Origin: Rhodobacteraceae bacterium Alg238-R152
Lineage (GTDB): Bacteria > Pseudomonadota > Alphaproteobacteria > Rhodobacterales > Rhodobacteraceae
Assembly: GCA_900537125.1 (NCBI GenBank)
Contig: UNRJ01000004.1
Span: forward strand, 372,001-436,000
DNA: 64,000 bases
Direction: 5' to 3'
Shown here: positions 2,140-61,705 of the stretch, one piece after another
Position numbering within the stretch: position 1 is the stretch's first letter
Layout: every line of letters starts with the position of its first letter
Made by a program: the position numbers and the translations under genes
Notes under the pieces: model-generated
What the model was told of the DNA's origin: nothing
What the model saw: only the letters and a program-made list of their open reading frames with translations
Database searches by the model: none

Positions 2140-3975
2140 TTACTCGCCCGGTGCTGCCACCGTTTCGATGGCTTTGTCCCTTTGGCCATCTCGGAACAGA
2201 GCTTTGGCAAGTGAAATGCACATCAGTCCCATGACAACCGTGAAGGGAAGAGCGCCGATGATCATAGCGCTCTTGAGAGCTTCCATTGGGTCAGCCCCCC
2301 CATTGGTTTTGCCCGCAATTAGCAATGTGCCGATCACTGCTGTAAGAATGACGCCCCAAACCACTTTGTGCTTGTTTCCGACTTCTTGATCACCCCCGGA
2401 CATGATGGTGTTCATCACTAGAATGCCGGAATCTGCGGAGGTCACCAAGAAGGTCATAATCAGCACGACGCACATAACAGTGATCGCACTGAGAAGGCCG
2501 CCGGACAGCATTTCACTCAACGTGACAAAAAGCTTGGCCGTATTGGAGGCTCCGATGATGGCCCCATCGGCGCCACCTGTGAGTTCCAAGTCGATTGCTG
2601 TGCCGCCCAGAATGGTCATCCACGCGAAACAAACAAGTGCCGGTGCAAACATGCAGCCCACGATAAATTCCCGCACAGTCCGACCGCGAGAAATGCGGGC
2701 CAGGAACAGACCAACAAATGGCGAGAAGGCAATCCACCATGCCCAGTAAAAGGTTGTCCAACCGGCCTGCCAACCAAATTGGCGACCCGGCTCACCTGCG
2801 GCATATGCAGCTTGAAGCACCGAATCTGGTAACGCAGCTGCATCCCCCTCAAGCCCAGACTTGAAACTGTCAAATGACCCCCATGCATTGGTGGCCCCCC
2901 CCTGGAGAGCATCTGCAAAAGGCGCAGCCTCACTTGGCAAACCTGCGGCAAACTCGCCGGCGGCCTGCGGTCCGTATGCGCCAAAGCTTAGCGACACAAA
3001 GTTCATTAGATAGTCGATAAGAGCCGTTGCATAGGTGGTCATGGCAAAGAAGAAGGAGCCGAACACCACAAAGACAAACAACAAGATAAGCGACAACACC
3101 AAGTTCAGGTTGGAAAGGTATTTCACGCCTTTGCCAACACCAGAAACAGCAGACACAATGGACAGACCCATGATCACCAACAAACCGGCGATCAATCCTA
3201 CGGTTCCAGGAGCTGGCGCTTCACCGCTCATGTCCATCATCCAACTCATACCGGTGATCGCGTACATGCCATCGATGAACTGGGACACGCCAAAGCCAAT
3301 CGTGACTGAGACGCCCAGAATAGTGGCAACCACTCCCAATACATCCACTATATGACCCAAAGGGCCGTTCATAAGTGGGCCAAACAGTGGGGTTAGCGCA
3401 GATCGGATCGTCAGCGGCATGTCTCGGGTATAGGCGTAATAGGCAAGTGACAGCCCCGTTACGACATAGATGGCCCAAGCATGAAAGCCGTAATGCGCAA
3501 AGGTATAGCGATACGCAGATTTCAGCGCATCTTCTGTATTACCAGTCACATCGCCCGCGACAACAACTGGGTTTGAGCCCCAAAGACCAAGAGGCTCTGC
3601 TGTTGCAAACACCATCAGTCCCACGCCGAGACCAGCGCCAAACATCATGGAAAACCATGAGAAATTTGAAAACTCCGTGCCTTCCCCTGGGCGCCCCATT
3701 ACGCGTTTTCCGGTTTGCGGGAGTGCTGCGAGCACAAACAAGAAGAACGCAAAGAAACCAACTATGATGATGTAGAACGTGTTGAAACTCTCGAGCAACT
3801 GCCAGTTCAAACTGCCCAATACGCCATTTGCATTTGCGGGCCAGACAAGTGCCCAAAGCACTAATCCAACCAAGATTGCCTTGGACAAAAGCGCAATTTC
3901 GACGCTGTGTCCTTCATAAAATCCGGACGCGGCCCTGTTGACCTCGACCTCTGTAAACGGTGGCTTAATTGACAT
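2140..3975 (-). CDS. BCCT-family betaine/carnitine/choline transporter
   Basis: This is a sodium- or proton-coupled carrier for quaternary or tertiary amines, 611 aa, of usual family length with about 12 hydrophobic segments. The BCCT signature is clear: FYWAWWIAFSPFVGLFLARI near residue 410, followed by SRGRTVREF. The segment MMFGAGLGVGLMVFATAEP near residue 110 is the glycine-rich TM3 region. It is the last gene of the minus-strand operon headed by an aldehyde dehydrogenase, 59 bases after the Ldh-type reductase. By position it should import the compound that the operon degrades, most simply a betaine-like (N-methylated) substrate. The exact substrate cannot be read from the sequence. Confidence 0.93.
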   Translation of the reverse strand: MSIKPPFTEVEVNRAASGFYEGHSVEIALLSKAILVGLVLWALVWPANANGVLGSLNWQLLESFNTFYIIIVGFFAFFLFVLAALPQTGKRVMGRPGEGTEFSNFSWFSMMFGAGLGVGLMVFATAEPLGLWGSNPVVVAGDVTGNTEDALKSAYRYTFAHYGFHAWAIYVVTGLSLAYYAYTRDMPLTIRSALTPLFGPLMNGPLGHIVDVLGVVATILGVSVTIGFGVSQFIDGMYAITGMSWMMDMSGEAPAPGTVGLIAGLLVIMGLSIVSAVSGVGKGVKYLSNLNLVLSLILLFVFVVFGSFFFAMTTYATALIDYLMNFVSLSFGAYGPQAAGEFAAGLPSEAAPFADALQGGATNAWGSFDSFKSGLEGDAAALPDSVLQAAYAAGEPGRQFGWQAGWTTFYWAWWIAFSPFVGLFLARISRGRTVREFIVGCMFAPALVCFAWMTILGGTAIDLELTGGADGAIIGASNTAKLFVTLSEMLSGGLLSAITVMCVVLIMTFLVTSADSGILVMNTIMSGGDQEVGNKHKVVWGVILTAVIGTLLIAGKTNGGADPMEALKSAMIIGALPFTVVMGLMCISLAKALFRDGQRDKAIETVAAPGE

Positions 3976-4034
3976 GCGTTTCCTCCCTGAATGTCAAAAT
4001 CCTTCGGCCCTTTCTGCGCCCCTCCTGCGCCAGA

Positions 4035-5042
4035 TCAGCCGATGATGTTTTCTATTTTCTCCAGCGTCGCCACATTTACCGCCACCCCGTCTATGCGGGC
4101 TTGAATGCGGTGCTTGTTACGGCCATCGCCGGGAAGTCTTGCGCCATCTTGCGCGCGAATTGTGTCTGTAAGCCGCGCGACCAAAGCTGCGAATCCACCG
4201 CCTGATGTTGCCATTGGATCTATTGCTATGAAGAATTGCCCGGTGCGAGGTGGCCCGCCCGCGGTGCCAGAGAATGGCGAGGCATCGATACCCAAGGTGG
4301 CCCCGGTCAGGGCTGCGGCCATAAGCTCAACAAGCAAGGCCGTTCCGACACCTTTGTAGCCGCCGGACGGGGCCATGGAGCCCTTTAGGCCAACGGCAGG
4401 ATCCGTTGTTGGTTGCCCCTCACTGTCAAGCGCCCAACCAACCGGAATTGGCTTGCCTTCCCGTGCGCGCTTCATGACTTCGCTTTTGGCGATTGTGCTG
4501 GCGCTTTGATCGATTAACAGCGCGGGGTCTCCACCAGGGCCGGGTACAGCAACTGAAAACGGATTTGTGCCAACCACTGGCTTGGATCCACCTGACGGCG
4601 CAATTGAGGCTGGTGCATTAGTGAAGCCAAGTCCAAGCAGCCCCGCTTTGGCCAGTTGTTGTGTGTGGTACCCAAGAACGCCGCAATTATAGCTGTTGTT
4701 TACTGCCAGTGCCGCTATTCCCTGGGAACGGGCAAGTGGGACTAAGGCATCAAAACCAATGTCGATTGCCGGATGGGCAAATCCTGTTGAGGCATCGACG
4801 GTGATCACGGAGGGAGCCGTGGTTTCACGCCTTGGTGTTACTTGGCCGTCTACTTTGCCGCAAATCACGTGCTCGCAGTATATTGGAATATAGGCCAGAC
4901 CATGACTGGATATCCCGTCAGCTTCGGTTGCTGCGGTGGCCACCGCAAGGGGGCGGGCATTTTCAACTGAGGTGCCTGCAGCCACCAACGCGTGCAGGCT
5001 CAGATCTTCGATTTCAGCAAGGCTTAGCGTTCTGGTTTCCAT
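4035..5042 (-). CDS. Ldh2/malate-lactate dehydrogenase-family oxidoreductase
   Basis: This is an NAD(P)H-dependent oxidoreductase of the type 2 malate/L-lactate dehydrogenase fold, 335 aa. The family also contains delta1-piperideine-2-carboxylate/pyrroline-2-carboxylate reductases and ureidoglycolate dehydrogenase. Supporting motifs are the N-terminal HALVAAGTSVENARPLA, SSHGLAYIPIY near residue 48, NNSYNCGVLGYHTQQLAKAG near residue 115, and GGSKPVVGTNPFSVAVPGP near residue 150. Its neighbours include an alpha-ketoglutaric-semialdehyde-type ALDH and a BCCT carrier, so reduction of a cyclic imine or oxidation of a hydroxy acid are both possible. I favour the cyclic imine, as inference only. Confidence 0.88.
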   Translation of the reverse strand: METRTLSLAEIEDLSLHALVAAGTSVENARPLAVATAATEADGISSHGLAYIPIYCEHVICGKVDGQVTPRRETTAPSVITVDASTGFAHPAIDIGFDALVPLARSQGIAALAVNNSYNCGVLGYHTQQLAKAGLLGLGFTNAPASIAPSGGSKPVVGTNPFSVAVPGPGGDPALLIDQSASTIAKSEVMKRAREGKPIPVGWALDSEGQPTTDPAVGLKGSMAPSGGYKGVGTALLVELMAAALTGATLGIDASPFSGTAGGPPRTGQFFIAIDPMATSGGGFAALVARLTDTIRAQDGARLPGDGRNKHRIQARIDGVAVNVATLEKIENIIG

Positions 5043-5056
5043 CTTGGCGTCCTCGT

Positions 5057-5695
5057 TTAGTCGTTGTCAGTAATTCCCGCGCCAGCGCCCGTCATACGAG
5101 ACGCTTCGGTTGCTGGCGCATATGTGCGATGCGCCAGCGTTTGCAGCACAGTCCAATCCGCTTCGTCGGGGGTAACGCGGGAGAAAGCGTCACTGGGCAG
5201 CACCGCCGTATACGTTGTTCGGATTGTCACCGAGACGCCTCGAGCAGGCACCTGTGCGTTGAGGCTCAGGTGATTACCATCGGTCACCGCAGAGAAACCT
5301 TGCCCCATCATCGCGACCGTTTGCCCCGTCTTAACGGCAATGTCGGCCACGAAAGGCATTAGGAAAGTAGCGCAAACAACATCGTTCACCTGCCAGCCTT
5401 CCGCACTCAATCCGTGCGCTTGATCAGCCATGCACGCGCCTACGTTAATAGGGCAGAGAGGTGCAGATTCGGATGTCCACGTCCCAATCTTCCAAGTCGG
5501 AGTGCGCTCAATGTTATGCTCTTCGATAGACAGCAGTCGGGCGAGGTCCGCACACCCGTTGATGCCTTTCCCACAAAGCCAACGCGTCGCCTTGGCTGCT
5601 TCTTCTGCCATACCCCATGTGAAACCAGCGCCACGTGCAGCCTTCTTCGCTGTTGCTTCGACTTCATTTAAAGACACGGTCAAGTGAATGGTCAT
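5057..5695 (-). CDS. DUF3726-family protein
   Basis: This is a soluble protein of 212 aa with no known function; it resembles the DUF3726 family. Recognisable parts are VSLNEVEATAKKAARGAG at the start, WGMAEEAAKATRWLCGKGING near residue 30 and VCATFLMPFVADIA near residue 110. I chose the ATG at 5695 because it overlaps the stop of the upstream gene as ATGA, the usual sign of translational coupling. An in-frame ATG 24 bases upstream (5719) is possible. The gene lies between an equally unknown 561-aa gene and the Ldh-type reductase. The tight linkage argues for a role in the same pathway, perhaps with the 561-aa protein. Confidence 0.75.
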   Translation of the reverse strand: MTIHLTVSLNEVEATAKKAARGAGFTWGMAEEAAKATRWLCGKGINGCADLARLLSIEEHNIERTPTWKIGTWTSESAPLCPINVGACMADQAHGLSAEGWQVNDVVCATFLMPFVADIAVKTGQTVAMMGQGFSAVTDGNHLSLNAQVPARGVSVTIRTTYTAVLPSDAFSRVTPDEADWTVLQTLAHRTYAPATEASRMTGAGAGITDND

Positions 5696-7377
5696 GGGGC
5701 CAACTCCGGGTACACCCAATCATCCGCGTTGGCTTCAGAAAGGGTCTCGGGGTATGGGGCGCCAGCAAACATACAAATGCGGACCCAGCGGTCTGACCTA
5801 GGATCAAAATGTGTAGCACCGAAAAAGGAGAGTTTTGCGCGCAGCATGTCTATTGGCAGCACATCACTTGAGATCGTGTTGTCGCGAATTTCTCCATAGG
5901 GCGCGGCGCGGCCCAATTGTGCACGTCGTATGGTATGGCGGTGTTCTGGGTGACGCTGCAGAAACTCGGCGACCTCGCACGTCTCAGGCCATTGCTTTAA
6001 CGCCTGGAAAGCTTGCACCGCATCACGTGCCGGTGCCCAAGGTTGCTCATAGGGAGCAATCGGTTCCTCAAACCGTTCCCCCAGCCGGGGCTCCAGTTTC
6101 TCCTCGGACACATACCAAGCCCGAGCGCAGTTATGAGGAGACTGCCAGTCAAGATCAAAAGCCCAGCCGAAACTTACCTCCAATAGCTTGTTCACCTCCC
6201 CAATCGGCATCGCGCCGTCGATGCTAGCCACTGCTGGGGTGGTATCGGCCATGCTGTTTGCAAGCGGATCAACCAGATCTGGGTAAGGTTCCAAAATCAA
6301 CGACGCCAGTAGTTCCTGTCCTTCGGAACTGAGGTGCGAGGTCGCCCAAGTCATCAACTGATCCCATGGATAGGGAGACTGAAAATCACACTCCTCAACC
6401 CGCGAACTCAGATGCACCAAATCGCGCTTCAATGCGTCGATTTTCTTCATCTGAATTGTGTGTTTGGACGTCCAACAGGAGACTGAATGGGTGCTGCGTT
6501 TCAGCCGGTCTTTGAAGACAGCCGTGGCATCGTCTGTCGCCTGCACAACCAAACGCACCTGAAGAATGGCTTCTTCCCGTGCCATAATCCAGTTGTTGAA
6601 CAAAACCGGATGGTTGATCACATAGGGCGCCATGCCCAAACCCGTGGAGTTTCCGATCCCAAGCCGTTGGGCAATGGAGTGATCGAGCCGGGCCGTCGTT
6701 GCCCCCCCCCTGACGCGCGCCATGTGCTGAACCAAATCCAAGACAAACGCGCGCGTGAGGTAAACGGACAACATCTCGACCTGAAACGGCGCGAAAAGTT
6801 CCTCGCGGCTGCAAAGCGTTTCACGGTCCGCGGCCCCGAACTTGCCGGACCCATACACCGCCGTTGTCCGCATGAGATAGCCAACCTGATCGATGGCGTC
6901 TGTGTCGGGCTGTTCGCCAGATGCCAAAGCAGATTCAACATGATCCCAAAGACGAACTGAACGGTTGGCACGTGACAAAGACAACTCTTTCTCACTGATG
7001 CGGCCCGCCTCCTGCAGCGGTACATTTTGCCTCAGTCGATCGATATCCGCGGCACTCGGCACACCATCAAACAACGTGAACGTCGCGTCCCATGCCTCCG
7101 CAATCACCCGATCAGACCGCATCTCATCTGGCAGATCATGGGCAAAGGCCACAAGAGAATAGCTGCGTTCTGGCCCAGTCGCCGTGTAAACGGCAAATCC
7201 AACGCCGGTTTCGTCAATCTCAAATTGTGGCCGAGAAAACTGCCAGTTTTCGGCAGCCAACCGTCGCAACAATACCCGCATGAAACTCAGTCGACATTGA
7301 TGCAGGGAGCCCAAGCGCTCCAATCGCATCACCTCCGACGGAGGGCGCCTTTTGATTTGCGGCGCGCTTGTGATCAT
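5692..7377 (-). CDS. Conserved hypothetical protein, 561 aa, operon-linked
   Basis: I do not recognise a domain. The protein is soluble, with no signal peptide or membrane segment. It is rich in Trp/Phe/Arg and has an amphipathic helical middle (residues 150-320). A conserved-looking segment is GIGNSTGLGMAPYVINHPVLF near residue 250, where the small-residue loop could bind a ligand. The C-terminus has FGATHFDPRSDRWVRICMF. It overlaps the M19-like gene upstream by 4 bases and the DUF3726 gene downstream by 4 bases, so three proteins are translationally coupled. Its size and position suggest a catalytic or subunit role in the pathway, but no reaction can be named. Confidence 0.8.
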   Translation of the reverse strand: MITSAPQIKRRPPSEVMRLERLGSLHQCRLSFMRVLLRRLAAENWQFSRPQFEIDETGVGFAVYTATGPERSYSLVAFAHDLPDEMRSDRVIAEAWDATFTLFDGVPSAADIDRLRQNVPLQEAGRISEKELSLSRANRSVRLWDHVESALASGEQPDTDAIDQVGYLMRTTAVYGSGKFGAADRETLCSREELFAPFQVEMLSVYLTRAFVLDLVQHMARVRGGATTARLDHSIAQRLGIGNSTGLGMAPYVINHPVLFNNWIMAREEAILQVRLVVQATDDATAVFKDRLKRSTHSVSCWTSKHTIQMKKIDALKRDLVHLSSRVEECDFQSPYPWDQLMTWATSHLSSEGQELLASLILEPYPDLVDPLANSMADTTPAVASIDGAMPIGEVNKLLEVSFGWAFDLDWQSPHNCARAWYVSEEKLEPRLGERFEEPIAPYEQPWAPARDAVQAFQALKQWPETCEVAEFLQRHPEHRHTIRRAQLGRAAPYGEIRDNTISSDVLPIDMLRAKLSFFGATHFDPRSDRWVRICMFAGAPYPETLSEANADDWVYPELAP

Positions 7378-8351
7378 GGGACGCTTGCGCCAAAGTTCTC
7401 ATCAAAGAAACGGTACCAATTACCGCCCATGATCGCGGCAACCTCATCCGCATTCATGCCGACGTCCCGCAATCCAGCCTCAATGGTGCCAAAATCACGA
7501 TTGTCTTGGAACCAGCTGGGCATCTCAGGAAAACCGGGCGAAGCGGCAGACCCTTCTCCAAAGTCGATCTCTTTGCTCCAGCGACCTGTGCGCATCCATT
7601 CGACAACGCTGTCGGGCTGGTCTTGACACAGATCGGACCCGATACCCAAATGGGTGACCCCATATGTGTCCGCGGCGCGGGCGACCATCTCGCAGAAACT
7701 CTGAAGCGTACAGGCCGATTTGTCCTTTAAGTGGTGAGGATATAGCGAAAACCCTATCATGCCTCCATTCTGCGTGACCGCCCGGAGCACATCGTCTTTC
7801 TTGTTGCGCAGCGCCGGTGACCACTCAAACGGGTTGGCGTGGGTGATAGCGATCGGCCGTTCCGAAACATCAGCGGCCTCAATGGTTGATCGGTCCGCAG
7901 AATGGCTCATGTCGACGACCAGACCGACCCGGTTCATTTCTTTAATGACCTGTTTCCCCATGCGGGTGATGCCGGTGTCTTCCGCCTCATAACATCCGGA
8001 TGCCAGCAACGATTGGTTATTATACGTCAGCTGCATAAAGCGCGCGCCCAGGGTGTGCAGAATCTCAATAAGCCCTATGTCATCCTCCATCGGGCTCGGG
8101 TTCTGAAACCCAAAGAAAATGGCGGTCCGGTTTGTGTCGCGGGCCACATCAATGTCTCGCGCGGATGTGCCTTTCATAATCAGGTCGCCATAGGTCTCAA
8201 ACCAGCGGTTCCATTGTTCGAAATTCAAAACCGTTTCACGGAAGGTTTCGTGGTAGGCAATAGTGACATGCACTGCATCAACACGGCCTTCGCGCAGTTG
8301 CCGGAAGATCTTCTCAGACCAATTGGCGTATTGAAGGCCGTCGATGCGCAT
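7374..8351 (-). CDS. M19 (membrane dipeptidase)-like amidohydrolase with altered metal site
   Basis: This is a TIM-barrel protein of the renal dipeptidase (M19) family, 325 aa and without a signal peptide. Family features are MQLTYNNQSLLASGCYE near residue 106, VDMSHSADRST with His150, ITHANP with His171 and GIGSDLCQ with Asp240. The expected N-terminal His-x-Asp ligand pair is replaced by Leu-Gln-Tyr (DGLQY, residues 4-8). The expected bridging Glu is Gln83 (GFQNPSP). Only two of the five usual zinc ligands remain, so a classical dipeptidase reaction is unlikely. It overlaps the next gene by ATGA and abuts the ALDH stop. A hydrolase for a lactam or amide intermediate, possibly mononuclear, is an inference. 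Confidence 0.88.
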   Translation of the reverse strand: MRIDGLQYANWSEKIFRQLREGRVDAVHVTIAYHETFRETVLNFEQWNRWFETYGDLIMKGTSARDIDVARDTNRTAIFFGFQNPSPMEDDIGLIEILHTLGARFMQLTYNNQSLLASGCYEAEDTGITRMGKQVIKEMNRVGLVVDMSHSADRSTIEAADVSERPIAITHANPFEWSPALRNKKDDVLRAVTQNGGMIGFSLYPHHLKDKSACTLQSFCEMVARAADTYGVTHLGIGSDLCQDQPDSVVEWMRTGRWSKEIDFGEGSAASPGFPEMPSWFQDNRDFGTIEAGLRDVGMNADEVAAIMGGNWYRFFDENFGASVP

Positions 8352-9802
8352 CAGGAAGGAACTCCTGCGCTGATGTAGGCTGTTTTGACCGTGGTGTAGA
8401 ATTCCGCAGCCGCCCGTCCTTGCTCGCGTGGCCCATAAGAACTGTCACCACGACCACCAAATGGCACGTGGTAGTCGGTTCCCGCCGTTGGCAAATTGAC
8501 CGTTACAACACCTGTTCGAGCGTGTCTCCGGAAATGCGTCGCGCGTGCCAGATCGCGGGTGACGATGCCAGACGTCAGCCCAAAGTTGGTGTCATTTACC
8601 GTTGCGAGGGCTTGATCATAGCTGTCGATCTTGATCACAGAAGCCAAAGGCGCAAACATCTCTTCCCGATTGATGCGCATGTCGTTTGTGGTGTTCAAAA
8701 AGATGCCCGGCGACATATAAAATCCATCCTCCGGCATCTCCAATCTGTCTCCGCCACAGGCAAGTTCGGCGCCTTCGGCTTGCCCTAGCGCGACATATTC
8801 GAGGTTTTCCTGAAGTTGTTGGGCGCTCACAACCGGTCCCATTTGGGTGCCGTCGTGCAATGCGTGGCCCACTTTCATCGACTTTGCGCCAGCAACCAGT
8901 TTGTCCACAAACGCATCATGCACTGACGCATGGACGATAAGCCGCGAAGAGGCTGTGCATTTTTGGCCTGTACCGCCAAAGGCACCGCCGAGAGCGACAG
9001 ACACGGCGAGATCAAGATCGCCGTCGTCCATTACAGCCAGTGCATTTTTGGAGCCCATTTCCATCTGGACCTTGGTCAAGTTCTGAATGGCGGCGGTCGC
9101 GATACCTTTGCCTACTGGCACGGAGCCAGTGAAGGAAATTGCATCGACGGAGGGGTGTTCAACAAGATGCTGACCTATCGAGCTCCCCGCACCCATAACC
9201 AGGGAAAAGAGCCCTTCTGGAATGTCTTGTCGGGAGATGATTTCGGTGAGTGCAACGGCTGATGCTGGCGTGACATTTGCCGGTTTCCAAACCACTGCAT
9301 TTCCGTAACACAATGCGGGTGCGATCTTCCAAGACGCTGTGGCAGTTGGGAAATTCCAAGGGGAGACAATGGCCACCACACCAACGGGCTCTCGGCGGAC
9401 ATCAATTTCGACACCTTCGCGCACACTGTCGGCATTTTCGCCCAGTTGACGCAGACACTCGGCAGCGTAGTAGGAGAAGAACTGTCCCGCACGAAAAACC
9501 TCTCCACGCCCTTCCGCGAAGGGTTTACCTTCTTCCCGGCTAAGCAACCGGCCAAGCTCGTCGGCACGGCTCATCAGTTCATTACCGATGCTCATCAGAA
9601 CGGCCTGCTTGCGCTCCATGCCATAGGTAGCCCACACAGCTTGCGCGCGTTGCGCCTGTTCTAGTGCCTCGTCCAACTGGCCCCGGCTGGCCTGCGCATA
9701 CCGGCCAATCAAGTCGCTTGTGTCCGAGGGGTTCCGGTTTTCAATTTCCTGATCCCCGGTGACCCATTGCCCCGCCACAAAATTGCAATTGATGTTCGAC
9801 AT
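8351..9802 (-). CDS. Aldehyde dehydrogenase, alpha-ketoglutaric semialdehyde type
   Basis: This is an NAD(P)-dependent aldehyde dehydrogenase of 483 aa. Catalytic residues are visible: Asn150 in SPWNFP, Glu248 in QMEMGSKN and Cys282 in GTGQKCTASSRL. The C-terminal VPFGGRGDSSYGPREQG and AAEFYTTVKTAY match the 2,5-dioxovalerate (alpha-ketoglutaric semialdehyde) dehydrogenase subgroup better than betaine or succinic semialdehyde enzymes. It is the first gene of the operon and shares a 116-base intergenic region with the divergent LysR gene. It probably makes the terminal oxidation to a dicarboxylate such as 2-oxoglutarate. The subgroup call is from memory of family motifs. Confidence 0.9.
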   Translation of the reverse strand: MSNINCNFVAGQWVTGDQEIENRNPSDTSDLIGRYAQASRGQLDEALEQAQRAQAVWATYGMERKQAVLMSIGNELMSRADELGRLLSREEGKPFAEGRGEVFRAGQFFSYYAAECLRQLGENADSVREGVEIDVRREPVGVVAIVSPWNFPTATASWKIAPALCYGNAVVWKPANVTPASAVALTEIISRQDIPEGLFSLVMGAGSSIGQHLVEHPSVDAISFTGSVPVGKGIATAAIQNLTKVQMEMGSKNALAVMDDGDLDLAVSVALGGAFGGTGQKCTASSRLIVHASVHDAFVDKLVAGAKSMKVGHALHDGTQMGPVVSAQQLQENLEYVALGQAEGAELACGGDRLEMPEDGFYMSPGIFLNTTNDMRINREEMFAPLASVIKIDSYDQALATVNDTNFGLTSGIVTRDLARATHFRRHARTGVVTVNLPTAGTDYHVPFGGRGDSSYGPREQGRAAAEFYTTVKTAYISAGVPS

Positions 9803-9820
9803 GCCGTGTCCCTTACGCGC

Positions 9821-9883
9821 TGGCCAAAATGGCCAAAGTTTGATGAGACATCGTGGACTCTCGACTCAACATCAGTCAAACTT
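9821..9883. promoter_or_regulatory. Candidate LysR binding region in the ALDH/LysR divergon
   Basis: The intergenic region contains TGGCCA-AAA-TGGCCA at 9821-9835 and an inverted repeat AAGTTTGA (9836-9843) ... TCAAACTT (9876-9883), with another TCAAACT half-site just downstream at 9895-9901. LysR regulators usually bind such interrupted dyads between divergent genes. The site assignment is tentative. Confidence 0.35.
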
Positions 9884-9917
9884 AAACTTCTTAATCAAAC
9901 TACAGAAAAATTGAAGT

Positions 9918-10787
9918 ATGATCAAAATCGATATGTTGCGGTGCTTTAGCACCGTCGCTCAGCTAGGAAGTTTGATGGAGGCTTCCACAAGATTGGGACG
10001 CACCCCATCCGCACTCTCCATGTCGCTCAAGCAGCTCGAGGGCCATCTTGGTGCGCGCCTGTTTGAAACAGAGCGGAAAAACAAACTGACCCCCCTCGGT
10101 CAAGAGGTCTTTCGCATCGCCCAAGCACAACTGCGCCAGTTTGATGACACCGTGACCTCCATTGAAAACGCAGCAAATGCACCCCAGGGGCTAATAAAAA
10201 TTGCGTCAATTCCGTCCGCCACAGGGCTTGCGTTACCTCAAGCGATTTCGACAATGATGGACCAACACCCACATCTAAAAGTCGAACTAAGAGACATGGA
10301 CAGTGCAATGGTTGCCGAGGCCATGCTGCATGGCGAGGCCGACATTGGCATCGCCTCGGGCCAACAGTCGCTCAACGGAGTGGATAGTGTCACGCTTTTT
10401 GAAGACGCCTTTGGTTTACTGTGTGGCGCCAAACATCCGCTGGCCATAACCGCGTCTCCACCAACCCTCGACGACATTTTCTCATATGCATTTATGAGCA
10501 ACAATTTATGTAGCCAGTTGGAGCTGAGCGAAGTCAAAATCGCCTCGGCGGGCGCCCATATAGCTGTGCACAACACACACTCTTTGATCGCGATGACACG
10601 AACAAACAATTGGGTGACAATCCTGCCGCAAAGTGTGGCCCGCGCCTTGCCTGATGAACTCGTTTTTCAGCCGATAGATGGCATAACTCAGCGACGCACT
10701 GTTTCTTTGCTTACAAGGCAACGCACACGATTTCCGGAATTGCTTGAGGCATTTTCCAGCCTTCTGATCCAATCAGACTGGACATAG
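9918..10787 (+). CDS. LysR-family transcriptional regulator
   Basis: This is a DNA-binding regulator of 289 aa. The N-terminal winged HTH (LRCFSTVAQLGSLMEASTRLG followed by TPSALSMSLKQLEGHLGARLFE) is followed by a type 2 periplasmic-binding-like effector domain from about residue 90 (IKIASIPSATGLALPQAIS). It is divergent from the aldehyde dehydrogenase operon and so is its likely local regulator, responding to the substrate or an intermediate. The ATG at 9918 is preceded by an A-rich region without a strong ribosome site. A second in-frame ATG at 9933 is possible. Confidence 0.93.
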   Translation: MIKIDMLRCFSTVAQLGSLMEASTRLGRTPSALSMSLKQLEGHLGARLFETERKNKLTPLGQEVFRIAQAQLRQFDDTVTSIENAANAPQGLIKIASIPSATGLALPQAISTMMDQHPHLKVELRDMDSAMVAEAMLHGEADIGIASGQQSLNGVDSVTLFEDAFGLLCGAKHPLAITASPPTLDDIFSYAFMSNNLCSQLELSEVKIASAGAHIAVHNTHSLIAMTRTNNWVTILPQSVARALPDELVFQPIDGITQRRTVSLLTRQRTRFPELLEAFSSLLIQSDWT

Positions 10788-11088: not shown

Positions 11089-12207
11089 CTAACGAAGGTC
11101 AATCCAAGATGCCCGGTTCTGTGTCGATCGCTGACAGGCATCCACGAACCGAACACCTTCGAGACCATCCAGGGAACCAATTGAAGTATTTTTCCCAACC
11201 TTCGTCGCAATGACTTCTGCGGCTTCTCGATACAGGGTCGCGAAGGCTTCCAAATAACCTTCGGGATGGCCCGCCGGAATTCGTGTCACCGCAGAAGCCG
11301 CTTCGTTGGAAGCAGCTCCGCCACGGGTGATTAGCTGCGAGGCTTTCGCCAGCTCCGAGAACCAGAGGACATTAGGGTCTTCTTGAGCCCAACGGAGAGC
11401 CCCCTTGGAACCGTAAACAGCTAAGGTCAGGTTGTTCTCGTTGCCGATAGCCACCTGACTGGCCCAGATATGACCATGCGCGCCACAATCATATTGCAAA
11501 GCAATGCGGGCATCGTCGTCGACCATACGTCCGTCGACATGGGTGCTAAGCGTGGCGCTGAGCGATGCGGCGCGCAGCCCAGATACAAAACAGGCGAGGT
11601 TATAGGCATGGGTGCCGATGTCGCCGATGGCTCCGCCTCCCGATTGAACTGGGTCAGCGCGCCATTTGGCCTGTTTATTGTCTTCGGCCGGGGCCTCGCT
11701 CAACCAATCTTGCAGGTAATTCACCTCGATGATCCGGATATTGCCCAATGCGCCCTCGGCCACCATTTGACGCGCTTGCCGGACCATCGGATAGCCAGTG
11801 TAATTGTGGGTCAGAAAGAAATATCCCTTAGATGCTTCTGCAGCTGCCAGAAGGCTCTTGGCTTGCGCCAAAGTAGCGGTCATTGGCTTGTCGCAAATGA
11901 CGGAAATATCGTGCGCCAGGAATGCTTCGGCAATGGGGCCATGTAGGTGGTTGGGAGTGACGATGGAAACGGCGTCGATCCCATCGGCGCGGGCGGCCTC
12001 AACCTTCGCCATTTCGGTGAAATCCGCGTAAGAGCGATCCCCGTCGATACCAATCTCGGCTGCAGAGGCATGCGCGCGCGCGGGATCAGACGAAAAGGCT
12101 CCCGCGACCAGATCGAAACACCCGTCCAGTCGCGCTGCCATCCGGTGAACACTACCGATGAACGCCCCCTGGCCACCACCAACCATACCGAGTTTCAACG
12201 CAGCCAT
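11089..12207 (-). CDS. Gfo/Idh/MocA-family oxidoreductase (sugar dehydrogenase)
   Basis: This is an NAD(P)-dependent sugar or inositol-type dehydrogenase of 372 aa. The Rossmann motif is at the N-terminus (LGMVGGGQGAFIGSVH). The family Glu-Lys-Pro motif appears as VICDKPMT near residue 117. The substrate-site segment is GGGAIGDIGTHAYNLA near residue 190, with the usual Asp and His. It is the last gene of the ABC-transporter operon, one base after a TIM-barrel gene. Two Gfo/Idh proteins and two TIM-barrel proteins in one sugar operon suggest oxidation of a sugar or glycoside hydroxyl followed by isomerisation or elimination. The substrate is unknown. Confidence 0.9.
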   Translation of the reverse strand: MAALKLGMVGGGQGAFIGSVHRMAARLDGCFDLVAGAFSSDPARAHASAAEIGIDGDRSYADFTEMAKVEAARADGIDAVSIVTPNHLHGPIAEAFLAHDISVICDKPMTATLAQAKSLLAAAEASKGYFFLTHNYTGYPMVRQARQMVAEGALGNIRIIEVNYLQDWLSEAPAEDNKQAKWRADPVQSGGGAIGDIGTHAYNLACFVSGLRAASLSATLSTHVDGRMVDDDARIALQYDCGAHGHIWASQVAIGNENNLTLAVYGSKGALRWAQEDPNVLWFSELAKASQLITRGGAASNEAASAVTRIPAGHPEGYLEAFATLYREAAEVIATKVGKNTSIGSLDGLEGVRFVDACQRSTQNRASWIDLR

Positions 12208-12208
12208 C

Positions 12209-13264
12209 TTAGAATCCCATCATTTTACGCAGAGCAGCAGGGTCAGTTTCACCCCCTGCGAAGTCGTCAAAGGCCCGCTCGGTCTGACGGATCAAATGAT
12301 TGGCAATGAATGGTGCTCCTTCGGCTGCCCCCTGCTCTGGGTGCTTCAAACAACACTCCCATTCAAGCACTGCCCAGCCATCAAAGCCGTATTGTGTGAG
12401 CTTTGAGAAAATGCCTTTGAAATTGACCTGACCATCCCCCAGAGAGCGAAAGCGACCAGCGCGATCTGTCCAATCAGCGTAGCCGGAATAGACGCCCTGC
12501 CGTCCTGTCGGGTTGAACTCGGCGTCTTTGACATGAAAGGCACTGATACGGTCATGGTAGATGTCGATGAAGGCCAAATAGTCCATCTGCTGCAACAGGA
12601 AGTGAGAAGGATCATAGGTGATTTTGCACCGTGAATGATCGTCTAGCCCGTTGAGGAAGCGTTCAAACGTCGTTCCATCAAACACGTCCTCACCGGGATG
12701 GATTTCAAATCCGAGGTCGACGCCTGCCTCGTCGTAGACGTCGAGGATTGGTTTCCAGCGGCGTGCCAGTTCACCAAAGGCTTCGTCGATCAAGCCCGCA
12801 GGGCGCTGTGGCCAGGGATAGAGGTAAGGAAAGGCAAGGGACCCGGTGAAACCAACGGCCCCCTTCAATCCAAGGTTCTTGGACGCTTGCGCAACTTTGG
12901 TGACCTGATCGACAGCCCACAGCTGGCGCTCGGCGGGGCTGCCGTGCAAATGGTCGGGTGCGAAGGCGTCAAATGCGGTGTCATACGCTGGATGCACTGC
13001 AACCAGTTGGCTTTGCAGGTGGCACGACAACTCGGTGATGGTCACGCCATGCGCGGCGCAGATGCCGGCCACTTCCTCGCAATAGGTTGTGCTGGAAGCG
13101 GCCTTATCCAAATCAAATACCCGTGCATCCCATGAAGGAATTTGCACGCCCTTATAGCCCAATCCCGCAGCCCATTCGACAATCGCGGACAGGGAATTAA
13201 ACGGCGCTTCGTCGCCCAGAAACTGGGCGAGAAAGAGGGCAGGACCTTTAACGGAAGTGGACAT
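12209..13264 (-). CDS. Sugar phosphate isomerase/epimerase-like TIM-barrel protein
   Basis: This 351-aa xylose-isomerase-like TIM barrel belongs to the IolE/IolH/epimerase superfamily. Likely divalent-metal ligands are visible: Glu in GFEIHPGEDVFD near residue 193, Asp and His in ITYDPSHFLLQQMDYL near residue 227, His in ISAFHVKDAEF near residue 250 and Glu in WAVLEWECCLKHPEQGA near residue 305. It follows the Gfo/Idh gene at 14407 by 21 bases and is separated from the next gene by one base. Members of this superfamily act on keto-sugars as isomerases, epimerases, dehydratases or 3-keto-glycoside lyases, so the reaction here is open. Confidence 0.88.
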   Translation of the reverse strand: MSTSVKGPALFLAQFLGDEAPFNSLSAIVEWAAGLGYKGVQIPSWDARVFDLDKAASSTTYCEEVAGICAAHGVTITELSCHLQSQLVAVHPAYDTAFDAFAPDHLHGSPAERQLWAVDQVTKVAQASKNLGLKGAVGFTGSLAFPYLYPWPQRPAGLIDEAFGELARRWKPILDVYDEAGVDLGFEIHPGEDVFDGTTFERFLNGLDDHSRCKITYDPSHFLLQQMDYLAFIDIYHDRISAFHVKDAEFNPTGRQGVYSGYADWTDRAGRFRSLGDGQVNFKGIFSKLTQYGFDGWAVLEWECCLKHPEQGAAEGAPFIANHLIRQTERAFDDFAGGETDPAALRKMMGF

Positions 13265-13285
13265 CTTACTCTCCGGGAATTGCGA

Positions 13286-14407
13286 TTATGCCAGCAGTGC
13301 TTGGGCCGCGTCGGGTCCAAGAATGTCGGGGCGTTTACAGCTGGTTTTCATCGTCATGACCGATCCGGTTTCACCAGCGTCAAGGATCGCGGTCATGACC
13401 TCAACCACATGGGTCGCAAATTCATCGTTACAGCGATGCGAACGCCCTTCGGAAATTGCCACGGCCATGTCGGCCAACCCGGCGCCACGGTAGTTGGCTT
13501 GGGTATCCTCGAAATTGGGGACGCTGAAGGGATGGTCCCATGATTTCTCAATCGGCTCACCGCTGCGTTCCGTCACGGTCAAAATGCCCCCAAAGAAATT
13601 GGGGTCTGGCAGGTTCATCGTCCCTTCGGTGCCGTAAAGCTCCATGATCGGGTGATTGCTGTCCCACACATCCCAACTGGCCAGCAGTGTGACAATTGCC
13701 CCGCTCTCGAAAGATAGAACGGAGTGGATCGTCGTTGGCGTTTCAACCGGCACAGTCTCGCCGTTGCGCGGACCGTTCTGGATGGTGCGGGTGTCGTGGG
13801 CCGCACCTGTGAAACTCGTGACCTTGGTCACCGGGCCCAGCATCTGCACCAGATTGCAGATGTAGTAGGGGCCCAGATCAAGGATGGGGCCCCCGCCCCT
13901 CTGAAAGAAGAAATCAGGGTTTGGATGCCAGTCCTCCATGCCGCTGGACATCACGACGGCCGCGCCGGACGCGACTTTGCCAATCACACCGGAATCGATC
14001 AGAGTACGGGCCAATTGGTGGCTTCCGCCCATAAAAGTATCGGGGGCTGATCCGATCCGCAGTTTATTTGCTGTCGCGATGTCGCTCAACTGCTGTCCCT
14101 CGGCGAGGCTGAGAACAAAGGGTTTTTCGGAATAGACGTGCTTGCCTGCCTGCAAAATTGAGCGGGACACGTCAAAGTGGGCAGCCGGGATTGTCAGATT
14201 GATGATCAAATCAACGTCCTCTGCGGCCAACAACTCCTCGACCGTGTCTGCCCGCACATCAAATGCCTCGGCCTGAGCGCGGGCGTTATCCATGTTGATG
14301 TCGGCGACTGCGACAATGTCATAGCCTTTGAACTTCGAGGCCAAGTTCAGGTAAGCCGTTGAAATGTTACCGCATCCGATGATGCCAACGCCAAGCGTTT
14401 TAGTCAT
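13286..14407 (-). CDS. Gfo/Idh/MocA-family oxidoreductase
   Basis: This is a second NAD(P)-dependent sugar dehydrogenase, 373 aa from the chosen ATG at 14407 (MTKTLGVGIIGCGNIS). That start overlaps the end of the preceding TIM-barrel gene by 8 bases. A longer frame begins 54 bases upstream but its extra residues are not family-like. Motifs are the GIIGCGNIS nucleotide loop, VYSEKPF near residue 92 and GGGPILDLGPYYICNLVQML near residue 174, where Tyr stands in the usual His position, as in one subgroup of the family. It probably works in sequence with the neighbouring TIM-barrel proteins. Confidence 0.9.
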   Translation of the reverse strand: MTKTLGVGIIGCGNISTAYLNLASKFKGYDIVAVADINMDNARAQAEAFDVRADTVEELLAAEDVDLIINLTIPAAHFDVSRSILQAGKHVYSEKPFVLSLAEGQQLSDIATANKLRIGSAPDTFMGGSHQLARTLIDSGVIGKVASGAAVVMSSGMEDWHPNPDFFFQRGGGPILDLGPYYICNLVQMLGPVTKVTSFTGAAHDTRTIQNGPRNGETVPVETPTTIHSVLSFESGAIVTLLASWDVWDSNHPIMELYGTEGTMNLPDPNFFGGILTVTERSGEPIEKSWDHPFSVPNFEDTQANYRGAGLADMAVAISEGRSHRCNDEFATHVVEVMTAILDAGETGSVMTMKTSCKRPDILGPDAAQALLA

Positions 14408-15164
14408 GGGTGTTCTCCCACAGGGTTTTGAGAGCAGCTGCAGAGCGGCTTGCATAGCCAACTGGATCTGCGGGTTTGTCGTGTTCCAGCACGTAAATCA
14501 GATCGCCAGACGTCACTCGGCATGCCTCCAATAGACCCGGCCAATCCATTGTTCCTGCCCCAAGATCAGACCAGCCGTCCTCATTCAGATTGGTGCCCTC
14601 GGCAGCGATGTCTTTAACGTGGATTGCCGCGAGGCGGTCGCCGTAACGTTTGATGTAGTCAAAAGGGTCTTGCCCGCCGCGAACGATCCATGCCAGGTCA
14701 GCTTCCCACGCGATATTGGGGGCTGCTTCTAACAACACGTCCATGGGCGTACTGCCATCAGCCTGCTTTACGAACTCAAAATCGTGGTTGTGCCACCCAA
14801 AGGTGATGCCGTGGTCTGCATATTTCTTGCCTGCCTCACCAAGACGTATGCCAATTGCGGCCCAGCCTTGCGCGGTGGTGGGACGGTCCTTCTCTTCAAG
14901 GTAAGGAGCAAAAATCCGGGTGATCCCAAGAGACGATGCGATCGCCAAAGTACCTTCGAAATCACCTTCGATATCAGCCAATCCCATGTGTCCCGACGGC
15001 ATGGTGATACCATTGGCATCCATCGCCGCGCGGTAGCTAGCAGGATCGCCGTAGACGCCACCGTAGCCTTCGACCTTGTTGATTCCCAAATCGGGCAATT
15101 GCGACAAGAGCGCGATCTGATCTGCACAATCGCGCATGGAATAGAGTTGTAGTGTTGCTGTCAT
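14400..15164 (-). CDS. Sugar phosphate isomerase/epimerase-like TIM-barrel protein
   Basis: This is a 254-aa TIM-barrel protein of the xylose-isomerase-like superfamily, shorter than its neighbour at 12209. Motifs are LYSMRD at the start, KVEGYGGVYGDPASY near residue 31, FGWHNHDFEFV near residue 121 (conserved His), IAWEADLAWIVRGGQDP near residue 150 and IAAIHVKDI near residue 177. I chose the ATG at 15164 because the product then starts directly with the first beta strand; upstream in-frame residues look non-coding. It lies 16 bases after the ATP-binding gene, so it is co-transcribed with the importer. Confidence 0.88.
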   Translation of the reverse strand: MTATLQLYSMRDCADQIALLSQLPDLGINKVEGYGGVYGDPASYRAAMDANGITMPSGHMGLADIEGDFEGTLAIASSLGITRIFAPYLEEKDRPTTAQGWAAIGIRLGEAGKKYADHGITFGWHNHDFEFVKQADGSTPMDVLLEAAPNIAWEADLAWIVRGGQDPFDYIKRYGDRLAAIHVKDIAAEGTNLNEDGWSDLGAGTMDWPGLLEACRVTSGDLIYVLEHDKPADPVGYASRSAAALKTLWENTHD

Positions 15165-15180
15165 GGAGCTTTTTCCAGAA

Positions 15181-16260
15181 TTAGAGGCGAATTTCAGTTT
15201 CAACGTCGAACAGATGAAGCCGTGCGGCATCGAACCCGATTGTCAGTTCGTCGCCCGCTTTTAGGCCTGACTGTCCTTCGGTTCGCACCCGCAAGGGTTG
15301 GCCGGCGAAGTTTGCCCAAACCAAGGTGTCCGAACCCATCGGCTCAACGATGTCGATTTCGGCTGTGCCGGTGAAGGATGCAGCCTTGGCCGCGTCTCCC
15401 GTCAAGATGTGTTCAGGGCGAATTCCCAACCAAACGGATCCGTCCTGGCGCGTTTGGGAAGCGAATTCGTACCCGGCAATGTCGATGGAAAGTCCTTCTC
15501 CGCTGAAATGCGATCCGGTCAACTGCCCTGCGAACTGGTTCATCGCGGGAGACCCGATAAAATCTGCGACGTATTTGTTACAAGGCTTGGCGTAGATCAC
15601 CTCGGGACTGTCGAGTTGTTGGATCAGACCGTCCTTCATGATCGATATGCGGTCGGCCAGTGTCATCGCCTCGACCTGATCATGGGTCACGTAAATCATC
15701 GTGTTTTTGAGTTTTTTGTGTAGCCGTTTCAACTCGACCCGCAGATCAGTGCGCAACTTCGCATCAAGATTGGAGAGCGGTTCGTCGAAAAGGAAAACAT
15801 CCACGTCCCGAACCAGTGCACGCCCAATGGCGACCCGTTGGCGTTGCCCGCCCGAAAGAGCGCCTGGTTTGCGATCCAGCAGTGGTTCAATTTGCAGAAC
15901 CTTTGCCGCGTATTCCACCCGCTCCTTGATTTCGGCTTTGGGGACTTTGGCGTTTTTCAACCCGAACGACAAATTTCCGCGAACCGACATTTGCGGATAG
16001 AGCGCATAGGATTGAAACACCATGCCGATGCCGCGGTCCGAAGGCTCAGCCCAAGTGACGTTATCACCTTTGATAAAGATCTGGCCGTCGGACACATCGA
16101 GCAACCCCGCGATGCAATTAAGCAAGGTCGATTTACCGCATCCCGAAGAGCCGAGAAGTACAAGAAATTCACCTTCCGCAATGTCGAGATTAAGTTGCTT
16201 CAGAACTTTGACTGCACCGAAGTTCAGGTCCAAATCTTTAATTTCTACAGAGTTTGTCAT
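15181..16260 (-). CDS. Sugar ABC transporter ATP-binding protein (UgpC/MsmK type)
   Basis: This is the ATPase of a carbohydrate importer, 359 aa. Visible motifs are Walker A LLGSSGCGKSTLLN near residue 37, the Q-loop VFQSYALYPQMSV, signature LSGGQRQRVAIGRAL, Walker B VFLFDEPLSNLDAKLR and the switch His in YVTHDQVEAM. The C-terminal 120 residues form the OB/TOBE regulatory domain (WLGIRPEHI). The ATG at 16260 begins the canonical MTNSVEIKDLDLNFG. It follows the permease stop by 7 bases and serves the permeases and binding protein upstream in the same operon. Confidence 0.93.
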   Translation of the reverse strand: MTNSVEIKDLDLNFGAVKVLKQLNLDIAEGEFLVLLGSSGCGKSTLLNCIAGLLDVSDGQIFIKGDNVTWAEPSDRGIGMVFQSYALYPQMSVRGNLSFGLKNAKVPKAEIKERVEYAAKVLQIEPLLDRKPGALSGGQRQRVAIGRALVRDVDVFLFDEPLSNLDAKLRTDLRVELKRLHKKLKNTMIYVTHDQVEAMTLADRISIMKDGLIQQLDSPEVIYAKPCNKYVADFIGSPAMNQFAGQLTGSHFSGEGLSIDIAGYEFASQTRQDGSVWLGIRPEHILTGDAAKAASFTGTAEIDIVEPMGSDTLVWANFAGQPLRVRTEGQSGLKAGDELTIGFDAARLHLFDVETEIRL

Positions 16261-16267
16261 AGTTTTA

Positions 16268-17173
16268 TTAGCCTTTGACTGCGCCGGCCGCGATTCCGCG
16301 GACAAAGAGTTTGCCAGAGGCAAAATAGATGACGAGAGGGACCAATCCGGTCAGCAAGGTTGCTGCCATATTGACGTTGTATTCCTTAACTCCCTGCACC
16401 GAGTTGACGATGTTATTGAGTTGCACCGTCATCGGATACGTGGCGGGTTTGGTGTAAATCACGCCAAACAGGAAGTCGTTCCAGATGCCCGTAACTTGCA
16501 GGATGATTGCGACCACGAAGATTGGTAGCGCCATGGGGATCATGATCTGGAAGTAGATCTGCCAGAACCCAGCTCCGTCGACCCGCGCGGCCTTGAACAG
16601 CTCTTCAGGAACCGAGGCAAAGTAGTTGCGGAACAGCAGCGTCAGGATCGGCATCCCGAAAACCGTGTGCACCAGCACCAGCCCACCGATAGACCCCATC
16701 AGGCCGATTTCGCGCAGCATGATGACGATTGGGTAAAGCATTGTCTGATAAGGGATGAAAGCGCCGATGATGAGGATGGTGAAGAAGGTCTCAGACCCTT
16801 TGAACTTCCAATTCGACAGGGCGTAGCCATTTATGGATGCAATCACGATCGACATCAGCACGGACGGCACCAGAATGCGAACCGAGTTGCCGAACCCGCG
16901 CGAAAGCCCGTCACAGTTAATGCCCGTGCAGGCCTCCGCCCATGCTTTGACCCACGGCTCGAATGTGACCTCCATTGGGGGACCAAAAACGTTGCCCATT
17001 CGAATTTCCGGCATCCCCTTTAGTGAAGTGACAATCATCACATAGAGCGGCAACAGGTAGTACATGGAGACCACGATAAGCGTGCCGTAAAGGAAGATAT
17101 TGGCGCGCGAGAACGTCTTCTTTGGTTTGGGGCCGCGTGGGCCTTGTGTAGTATTTGTAGTTATATCAGCCAC
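16268..17173 (-). CDS. Carbohydrate ABC transporter permease (MalG type)
   Basis: This is an inner-membrane permease of 301 aa with about six membrane helices. The first is near residues 25-48 (NIFLYGTLIVVSMYYLLPLYVMIVTSLKG, split here only for description). The coupling EAA loop is EELFKAARVDGAGFWQIYFQ near residue 204. A large periplasmic loop with a Cys pair (ACTGINCDG near residue 80) is a small oddity. It overlaps the preceding MalF-type permease by 8 bases. Confidence 0.93.
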   Translation of the reverse strand: MADITTNTTQGPRGPKPKKTFSRANIFLYGTLIVVSMYYLLPLYVMIVTSLKGMPEIRMGNVFGPPMEVTFEPWVKAWAEACTGINCDGLSRGFGNSVRILVPSVLMSIVIASINGYALSNWKFKGSETFFTILIIGAFIPYQTMLYPIVIMLREIGLMGSIGGLVLVHTVFGMPILTLLFRNYFASVPEELFKAARVDGAGFWQIYFQIMIPMALPIFVVAIILQVTGIWNDFLFGVIYTKPATYPMTVQLNNIVNSVQGVKEYNVNMAATLLTGLVPLVIYFASGKLFVRGIAAGAVKG

Positions 17174-18083: not shown

Positions 18084-18158
18084 CGTGTCGGCTCCAATTT
18101 AGCAAAATGTCGGGGTTGGTCCGGCGCCCCATGCCGCCGGACCAGATCAACGTGGTGT

Positions 18159-19400: not shown

Positions 19401-19464
19401 TGTTTCCTCCCAGAAAATGCGGGTTCCCGCCTATAATTTTCGATTGCTTTGCAGATCATCTGGC

Positions 19465-19530
19465 CTGCAATCGATTACATCGTCATCCGGCATTGATGTT
19501 TGTGTCAATAAGTAATGTAATCGATTGCAG
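19465..19530. promoter_or_regulatory. Two inverted LacI-type operators
   Basis: CTGCAATCGATTACAT at 19465-19480 is the exact reverse complement of ATGTAATCGATTGCAG at 19515-19530. Each copy has the LacI-family palindromic core AATCGATT flanked by TGC/ACA. The centres are 50 bp apart, between the binding-protein gene and the LacI gene, suited to paired occupancy or looping by the LacI product and to control of both promoters. Confidence 0.8.
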
Positions 19531-19559
19531 AAATACATGTGGGTTGCGGAGACTTAACG

Positions 19560-56973: not shown

Positions 56974-57159
56974 TTTGGCTTTCTCCTTGTTGGTATTTGG
57001 CTGTTTGTTTTTGCTGCACCATCTTTGTGGCGCCTATCACAAAGCAGAACCCTCTGGGATTGCTATGAATTCATTCAAATGTGCCTTTGCCTAACTTCAC
57101 TTGTCCGGACATAGGATTGCACATCCCCTGCCCGGAGGGAAAAGGAAGTTACCTCTTCG

Positions 57160-60077: not shown

Positions 60078-60119
60078 CTTGGCTCTCGTTTCACCGCCCT
60101 GCGCGGAGGTTTGTTTTTG

Positions 60120-60154: not shown

Positions 60155-60161
60155 AGCTGTC

Positions 60162-61619: not shown

Positions 61620-61705
61620 GGATGAACTCCCTAAATTCTTATCGCGCACTTCACGCGCAGTTTGCCCCGGCCATGGCTTCTTCTGGCTCAAAATACTCCG
61701 GGGGT

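Follow-up and report, generated by a model that had tools for sequence, protein, structure and literature searches.

Rhodobacteraceae carry a conserved core of three uncharacterised proteins that may open betaine-like compounds. In the window analysed here, a 64,000-nucleotide stretch of contig UNRJ01000004.1 from Rhodobacteraceae bacterium Alg238-R152, the core comprises an M19-like amidohydrolase, a 561-residue protein without an annotated family (U561) and a DUF3726 protein. Its genes lie in a six-gene operon that also encodes an aldehyde dehydrogenase (ALDH), an Ldh_2-family NAD(P)H oxidoreductase (Ldh) and a BCCT transporter, with a LysR-type regulator transcribed divergently. The core is the fixed unit of this arrangement, around which ALDH, Ldh and transporter vary. 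We read the locus, tentatively and at slightly less than an even chance, as a LysR-controlled operon for the catabolism of an imported N-methylated betaine-type zwitterion by way of a three-protein core that attacks a C–N bond.

The fixed unit emerges from a comparison of genomes, drawn from a sample of 248 genomes of the family and one of 398 genomes of the phylum. Of the 248 family genomes, 115 (46%) match U561, one of them (G108) only through a 54-residue fragment (E 5e-4), and an independent search of the same sample finds DUF3726 in 114. Compared by eye, the two lists show 116 family genomes with at least one of the proteins and 113 with both: U561 is alone in G098 (a partial copy, residues 5-412) and G149 (a distant copy, 32% identity), and DUF3726 is alone in G057. 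In the phylum sample U561 is found in 29 of the 398 genomes, 12 of them outside the family.

Gene neighbourhoods were compared at 161 distinct loci (166 minus five duplicates; the broken fragment L101 is excluded from all counts). The set is not random: 80 loci are the best-scoring named contigs out of at least 576, and the remainder were hand-picked across the identity range. A neighbour is a family match within 7 kb of U561, and genes at unannotated loci are calls of the longest open reading frame (ORF). The M19-like gene is a neighbour at 152 loci and DUF3726 at 146, followed by ALDH (93), a LysR gene of the operon's type (87), Ldh (64) and BCCT (52). The densities of DUF3726, M19, Ldh, ALDH and BCCT matches drop to zero or nearly so past 5-7 kb. 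Chance gene order is ruled out by the co-occurrence of U561 and DUF3726, the neighbour counts and the distance densities together. A preliminary description of the sequence had taken all six genes as the unit and had proposed co-occurrence as its check. Conserved co-occurrence and a catabolic operon stand, but the unit shrinks to the core, since only 23 of the 161 loci have the full set of six inside 7 kb (20 of the 60 at which U561 is at least 62% identical). DUF3726 has no match at 15 loci. At 14 of them U561 is at most 40% identical; at the other (L131, 62%) the sequence stops ∼650 bases past U561. Gene maps read by eye show an unmatched gene of 232-255 codons directly 3′ of U561 at 12 of these 14 low-identity loci; the copy in Vibrio (L187) is DUF3726 by Pfam, and that in Sinorhizobium meliloti (L033) has no Pfam match.

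The M19-like protein shares with the M19 membrane dipeptidases of MEROPS the family match, two His and a late Asp. Its closest PDB match, 2i5g (E 1e-48), which we take to come from Pseudomonas aeruginosa, is named only ‘amidohydrolase’. The metal ligands of the M19 dipeptidases presumably include an N-terminal HxD and a bridging Glu (GIEG in GliJ). In the window protein IDGLQYANW replaces HxD, and DMSH, ITH and GSD motifs are present; against GliJ the bridging Glu has become Gln, with both His and the late Asp retained. Three of the five dipeptidase metal ligands are lost. The pattern is general among 30 sequences, the window included: wherever the N-terminus can be read (27 sequences) HxD is missing, Gln stands in for the bridging Glu in 29, and the two His and late Asp are kept in all 30.

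Some outside relatives of this protein lie beside genes of the dimethylglycine-dehydrogenase type. Sixteen of the 30 M19 loci (51-100% identical) come from U561 genomes, and the flanks of these 16 contain no DgcA-like gene. At 10 of the other 14 (L254-L263, 29-32% identity), none of them a U561 locus, a gene for a DgcA-like NADH:flavin oxidoreductase lies within ∼1.5 kb, and in Azospirillum a related M19 gene (29%) follows soxBDAG. These placements tie the M19-like subfamily to N-methyl amino acid catabolism. Two papers report that the dgcAB operon includes a hypothetical protein alongside a predicted dipeptidase (PMC12093977; PMC8079746), and excerpts of them mention no U561, DUF3726 or Ldh. 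The likeness to the dgcAB operon (Pseudomonas, Vibrio) is that an M19-like protein of the HxD-less type adjoins a DgcA-like gene in the 10 genomes; the difference is that the window operon has no ETF and, in a Pfam scan, neither DgcA nor DgcB. The M19 proteins of L254-L263 also lack HxD and the bridging Glu, which makes their annotation as ‘dipeptidase’ doubtful too.

U561 has no credible Pfam or NCBIfam match (the best stray match, E 0.026, comes from one of 19 members) and no PDB sequence match. The 19 diverse members, with identity down to 27%, share 40 invariant columns that include 10 Arg and 5 Asp/Glu and no His, Cys or Lys, along with two conserved glycine-rich stretches. An AlphaFold2 model built from 66 sequences is confident, with a predicted local distance difference test score (pLDDT) of 90.1 and a predicted template-modelling score (pTM) of 0.92. 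Among the best 50 Foldseek matches to each database nothing is convincing, either in the PDB (best E 0.11, top probability 0.13) or in BFVD (best E 0.32, top probability 0.33). A confident model with no structural match suggests that U561 may have a new fold, as judged against these two databases.

The predicted structure of DUF3726 has a pLDDT of 91.8 and a pTM of 0.85. Its first 24 Foldseek matches in the PDB are all Ldh_2-type (probability 0.87-1.00) and include YiaK and the ureidoglycolate, sulfolactate and type 2 malate dehydrogenases; they are weak by other measures (E 0.002-0.1, none at or below 0.001; query TM score 0.41-0.48; root-mean-square deviation 3.7-14 Å). In an hhalign comparison with the operon's Ldh the N-termini are colinear (E 7e-5), and Cys56 (numbered from the TTG start) stands opposite the catalytic His47 of Ldh, at a probability of only 63. 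DUF3726 probably resembles the Ldh_2 or YiaK-type malate-lactate dehydrogenases in predicted fold and N-terminal order, but differs in length (∼212 versus 335 residues), in a TM score below 0.5 and in having no His at the aligned catalytic position. It is probably a shortened, catalytically altered Ldh_2 relative of the adjoining Ldh. The word DUF3726 occurs in no paper of the literature searched (open-licence PubMed Central, preprints excluded). The earlier suggestion that the novel steps would lie with U561 and DUF3726 is supported.

The closest PDB match of Ldh is Delta1-piperideine-2-carboxylate (Pip2C/Pyr2C) reductase, 1wtj (E 3e-56, residues 3-335), at 195 bits against 132 for the next entry. 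The match spans the full length and retains the catalytic His (His47 aligned with His54 of 1wtj). Other lineages carry a different protein with a bearing on imines: RidA proteins (PF01042) hydrolyse imines and enamines. Of the 161 loci, 64 have Ldh and 29 have RidA, and the two never coincide (Fisher p 8e-8); restricting the count to the 93 loci with ALDH gives 47, 24 and again none (p 7e-10), with ancestry ignored in both tests. The RidA model derives from the cluster found here and three others and misses other RidA types, and the RidA genes of S. meliloti lie past the 7-kb limit and are not among the 29. The position of the RidA genes differs: some lie between LysR and ALDH, others on the far side of LysR or downstream of DUF3726. 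Parsimony on a FastTree tree of U561 counts 12 changes of the RidA label and 26 of the Ldh label, showing that the exchange of Ldh and RidA occurred repeatedly. Mutual exclusion, together with an imine reductase as the nearest relative of Ldh, suggests that the product of the core is an imine or enamine that can go one of two ways, reduction by Ldh or hydrolysis by RidA. At three loci (L073, L074 and L078) the catalytic SHG of Ldh has become ICG, His being replaced by Cys, and the gene remains beside the core.

A betaine-type substrate and importer, as first proposed, are supported by the BCCT aromatic-cage segments or ProX/ProU-type ABC genes that accompany the core and by the dgc kinship of the M19-like protein. 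The 611-residue BCCT protein of the window scores 480 bits in Pfam and 388 bits against the glycine-betaine equivalog, under its cut-off of 650; its closest PDB matches are a trimethylamine transporter, a BCCT transporter and BetP, and the cage segments WAIY and FYWAWW are present. All three cage segments sought are found in 19 of the 54 BCCT frames near U561. A second BCCT type (514-542 residues, altered cage segments) sits between M19 and U561 in other genomes. The closest PDB entries to ALDH are betaine aldehyde dehydrogenases, and it scores 402 bits against the corresponding NCBIfam equivalog, under the cut-off of 669.

The locus takes several forms. In Rhodobacterales the order is LysR, ALDH, M19, (514-residue BCCT), U561, DUF3726, (Ldh), (611-residue BCCT); in some genomes of other classes and in Vibrio THAF190c it is LysR, (RidA), ALDH, M19, BCCT, U561, DUF3726, (RidA). 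Aminobacter, Pararhizobium and Shinella have glycine-betaine/proline-type (ProX/ProU-type) ABC genes, with no BCCT shown, and in Shinella a gene like that of pyrroline-5-carboxylate reductase adjoins the module together with the ProU-type transporter. Distant versions consist of U561, a DUF3726-like gene and M19, followed by ABC transporter genes (S. meliloti, Bosea, Neorhizobium) or, in Variovorax, by a tripartite tricarboxylate binding protein, with IclR-type regulators. The S. meliloti locus also has an aminotransferase, a succinate-semialdehyde-type ALDH and two RidA genes. In an excerpt of the relevant paper smb20383 of this species is listed under histidine or spermidine/putrescine transport; it is assumed to belong to the pSymB U561 locus, where the record carries no annotation.

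Individual loci have neighbours of their own. Genes for HIU hydrolase and a urate-oxidase-type protein lie directly upstream of M19-U561-DUF3726 at L079 (6342-8929), with CoA-transferase genes downstream; PreT/PreA-like dihydropyrimidine dehydrogenase genes adjoin the core at L073; and PALP, M24 and Asp/Glu-racemase-like genes follow Ldh at L051. In two distant taxa (L036 and L087) an alpha/beta hydrolase gene and a gene of 200-234 codons (clusters c52 and c53) precede the module, the c53 gene being annotated ‘amino acid synthesis family protein’ in L036. As clues to the substrate, urate, dihydropyrimidine, CoA-ligase, D-serine-dehydratase-like, acyl-CoA-dehydrogenase and M24 neighbours were considered and set aside: each occurs at few loci, and they point to no single substrate.

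From these data we infer a substrate class, a protein complex, an imine intermediate and an order of steps. (i) The BCCT protein would import an N-methylated zwitterion, a betaine-type osmolyte. (ii) The first step, on the C–N bond, would be taken by U561, probably in complex with DUF3726, a shortened Ldh_2-type protein that would lack the catalytic His. (iii) The M19-like barrel, which would have no more than one metal site, would hydrolyse a C–N bond, and the output of the core would be an imine or enamine. (iv) Here Ldh would reduce this product to an (N-methyl) amino acid, and in other lineages RidA would hydrolyse it instead. (v) ALDH would oxidise an aldehyde product to an acid that enters central metabolism. 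Leftover N-methyl groups may be removed by demethylases encoded elsewhere in the genome, as had been supposed. This is plausible, as the host genome has 11 GCV_T-domain matches (10 above the cut-off) and four MttB-family matches, and the core has sarcosine oxidase or GCV_T-FAD genes in its vicinity in TM1040 (L031) and at L053, L122, L124, L133 and L135.

Several observations weigh against this reading. GCV_T-FAD and sarcosine-oxidase genes are not enriched near the core (per 100 kb, 0.1-0.2 at up to 5 kb versus 0.7-1.2 further out). The Ldh and RidA labels are clustered on the U561 tree, with 35 changes among three states against a mean of 70 for shuffled labels; because the Fisher tests ignore ancestry, their p values overstate the evidence for exclusion. 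The linkage of RidA is also blunter, at 0.8, 1.1, 2.7, 0 and 0.9 per 100 kb at 0-3, 3-5, 5-7, 7-9 and >9 kb. None of the three cage segments is present in 32 of the 54 BCCT frames near U561, and the ProX-like protein of Aminobacter scores 72 bits against a ProX cut-off of 215. Distant relatives carry SBP_bac_8-type ABC, tripartite tricarboxylate or other transporters, a diversity suggesting that the substrate may not be a betaine. At L253, which holds the closest M19 relative outside the core loci (34%), and at the more distant L264-L266, the short flanks show no DgcA-like gene. In one clade (L083, L086, L088-L092, L095) the core has no ALDH, Ldh, RidA or BCCT nearby; its neighbours are housekeeping genes (YcjX, DUF697, pseudouridine synthase, TamB/Omp85), with an acyl-CoA dehydrogenase gene upstream at three loci.

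The solo core of this clade is one ground for the view that the three proteins form a general module for C–N hydrolysis or repair of an internally made reactive nitrogen compound, recruited beside varied catabolic genes. The urate-type (L079) and PreT/PreA-like (L073) neighbours, the very different transporters of other genomes and the dgc and sarcosine-oxidase settings of the M19 relatives all fit such a module. An ALDH gene near the core at 93 of the 161 loci and a LysR gene at 87 are more in keeping with an operon induced by its substrate, and we regard a repair module as unlikely. The preliminary description had favoured a route from an N-containing ring (proline betaine, hydroxyproline betaine or homarine) to a dicarboxylate, with Ldh as a pyrroline/piperideine-2-carboxylate reductase and ALDH as a 2,5-dioxovalerate dehydrogenase. 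The PDB match of Ldh, the imine chemistry hinted at by the RidA exchange and the Shinella neighbours agree with it, as does the rank of ALDH, whose top NCBIfam models are the 2,5-dioxovalerate and alpha-ketoglutaric semialdehyde dehydrogenases; its scores, at 488 and 482 bits, fall 260-290 bits under the respective cut-offs of 750 and 770. The alignment of Ldh places Tyr51 at Arg58 of 1wtj, which we take to bind the substrate carboxylate, and this position is Tyr in 12 of 15 sequences (alignment A4), with Arg or His in L081, L094 and L099. An imine-type intermediate keeps its support, but the cyclic-imine and 2,5-dioxovalerate assignments look weaker than first supposed. Moreover, Ldh and BCCT are near only 64 and 52 of the 161 loci, Pfam and NCBIfam find no racemase, deaminase or ring oxidase family in the operon, and its remaining genes presumably differ from the lysine and hydroxyproline pathways known for Pip2C/Pyr2C reductase. 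The route to a dicarboxylate is thus decidedly unlikely.

Two further alternatives concern the core proteins themselves. U561 and DUF3726 could serve the M19-like enzyme as sensor, scaffold or chaperone instead of being enzymes, as the absence of invariant His, Cys and Lys from U561 and, in the hhalign alignment, of the Ldh catalytic His from DUF3726 might indicate. The 40 invariant columns, with their 10 Arg and 5 Asp/Glu, and the glycine-rich stretches of U561 look more like those of a ligand-binding or catalytic protein, and a purely auxiliary role seems quite improbable. Finally, the M19-like protein could be a true dipeptidase acting on a peptide or amide, given a Peptidase_M19 score of 233 bits and the retained His and Asp. 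The near-universal loss of HxD and of the bridging Glu speaks against it, as does a second M19 protein of the same genome (L235) that keeps both; a third (L236) shows neither in the same alignment. An ordinary peptidase is rejected on the loss of metal ligands, and a true dipeptidase acting on a peptide or amide is very improbable.

The catabolic, betaine-related reading thus remains the preferred one. The trigonelline (tgn) and ectoine/hydroxyectoine (doe/eut) clusters likewise degrade zwitterionic N-compounds with an ALDH, and their first-step enzymes are, we assume, not those of the window operon. Regulated operons devoted to the catabolism of betaine-like solutes are a known kind of system, and the version with this core is new to the literature searched. 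A match of the whole gene set to a solved pathway, the refutation named at the outset, was not found in the excerpts of that literature, which is not proof of absence. A bolder proposal, somewhat unlikely in our judgement, is that U561 as a new enzyme fold, a truncated Ldh_2-type DUF3726 and an M19-like hydrolase without a binuclear centre would make up a new C–N-cleaving system, present in almost half of the sampled family genomes, in which a betaine abundant in the sea would be opened to an imine.

All seven genes are found at the positions and in the families first assigned to them (ORF, Pfam and NCBIfam checks; Table 1). Transcription runs from ALDH through M19-like, U561, DUF3726 and Ldh to BCCT, with LysR on the opposite strand. 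The first three junctions overlap by 1, 4 and 4 bases, as had been described, and the last two are gaps of 14 and 59 bases. The start of DUF3726 in the ORF list is a TTG (5719); many relatives start at a Met matching the ATG that ends at 5695, and this start gives the 4-base overlap with U561. A promoter scan of the divergent intergenic region finds no consensus site, and promoter and terminator matches in general are near the expectation from shuffled sequence. The host genome measures 4.27 Mb, and the best named U561 relatives among the matches listed are those of two Shimia strains (75-76% identity).

Table 1. Features of the operon and its divergent regulator (window coordinates)
Feature	Position	Strand	Remarks
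BCCT transporter, 611 aa	2140..3975	-	last operon gene; Pfam BCCT E 1e-143
Ldh_2-family NAD(P)H oxidoreductase, 335 aa	4035..5042	-	Pfam Ldh_2 E 3e-90
DUF3726 protein, ~212 aa, core gene	5057..5695	-	Pfam DUF3726 E 4e-21
U561 (561-aa core protein), no annotated family	5692..7377	-	no Pfam/NCBIfam match
M19-like amidohydrolase, 325 aa, core gene	7374..8351	-	Pfam Peptidase_M19 E 7e-69, 232.9 bits (cut-off 26)
ALDH, 483 aa, first operon gene	8351..9802	-	Pfam Aldedh E 1e-153
Divergent intergenic region, 115 bp, presumed LysR-controlled promoter	9803..9917	.	position only
LysR-type regulator, 289 aa, divergent	9918..10787	+	Pfam LysR_substrate E 5e-28, HTH_1 E 4e-15

A two-ORF transposase (766-1898, 102 and 276 residues), which we take to be of the IS3 type, comes to within ∼240 bp of the 3′ end of the BCCT gene. 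On the other side the operon adjoins what the translations suggest is a block for sugar or cyclitol catabolism (11089-20582), with two Gfo/Idh/MocA-like and two TIM-barrel isomerase-like proteins, a binding-protein ABC transporter and a LacI-type regulator. Further along, 49294-52812 encodes a 1172-residue protein with long internal RTX-like GGxGxD repeats (from its translation), across which an antisense frame of 291 codons is open. The genes at 55984-63791 (hydantoinase/dihydropyrimidinase-like and carbamoyl-amidase-like proteins, an ABC transporter and a TetR-type regulator) resemble a locus for reductive pyrimidine catabolism.

If the proposed reading is right, three uncharacterised core proteins, encoded in 46% of the genomes sampled from a major family of marine bacteria and in genomes beyond it, would perform a hitherto unknown step by which nitrogen-bearing compounds of algae or plants are turned over. 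How betaines other than glycine betaine are opened would become directly testable. There would be a first testable role for DUF3726, and for the M19-like protein encoded in the dimethylglycine operon, and U561 would perhaps add a new protein fold.

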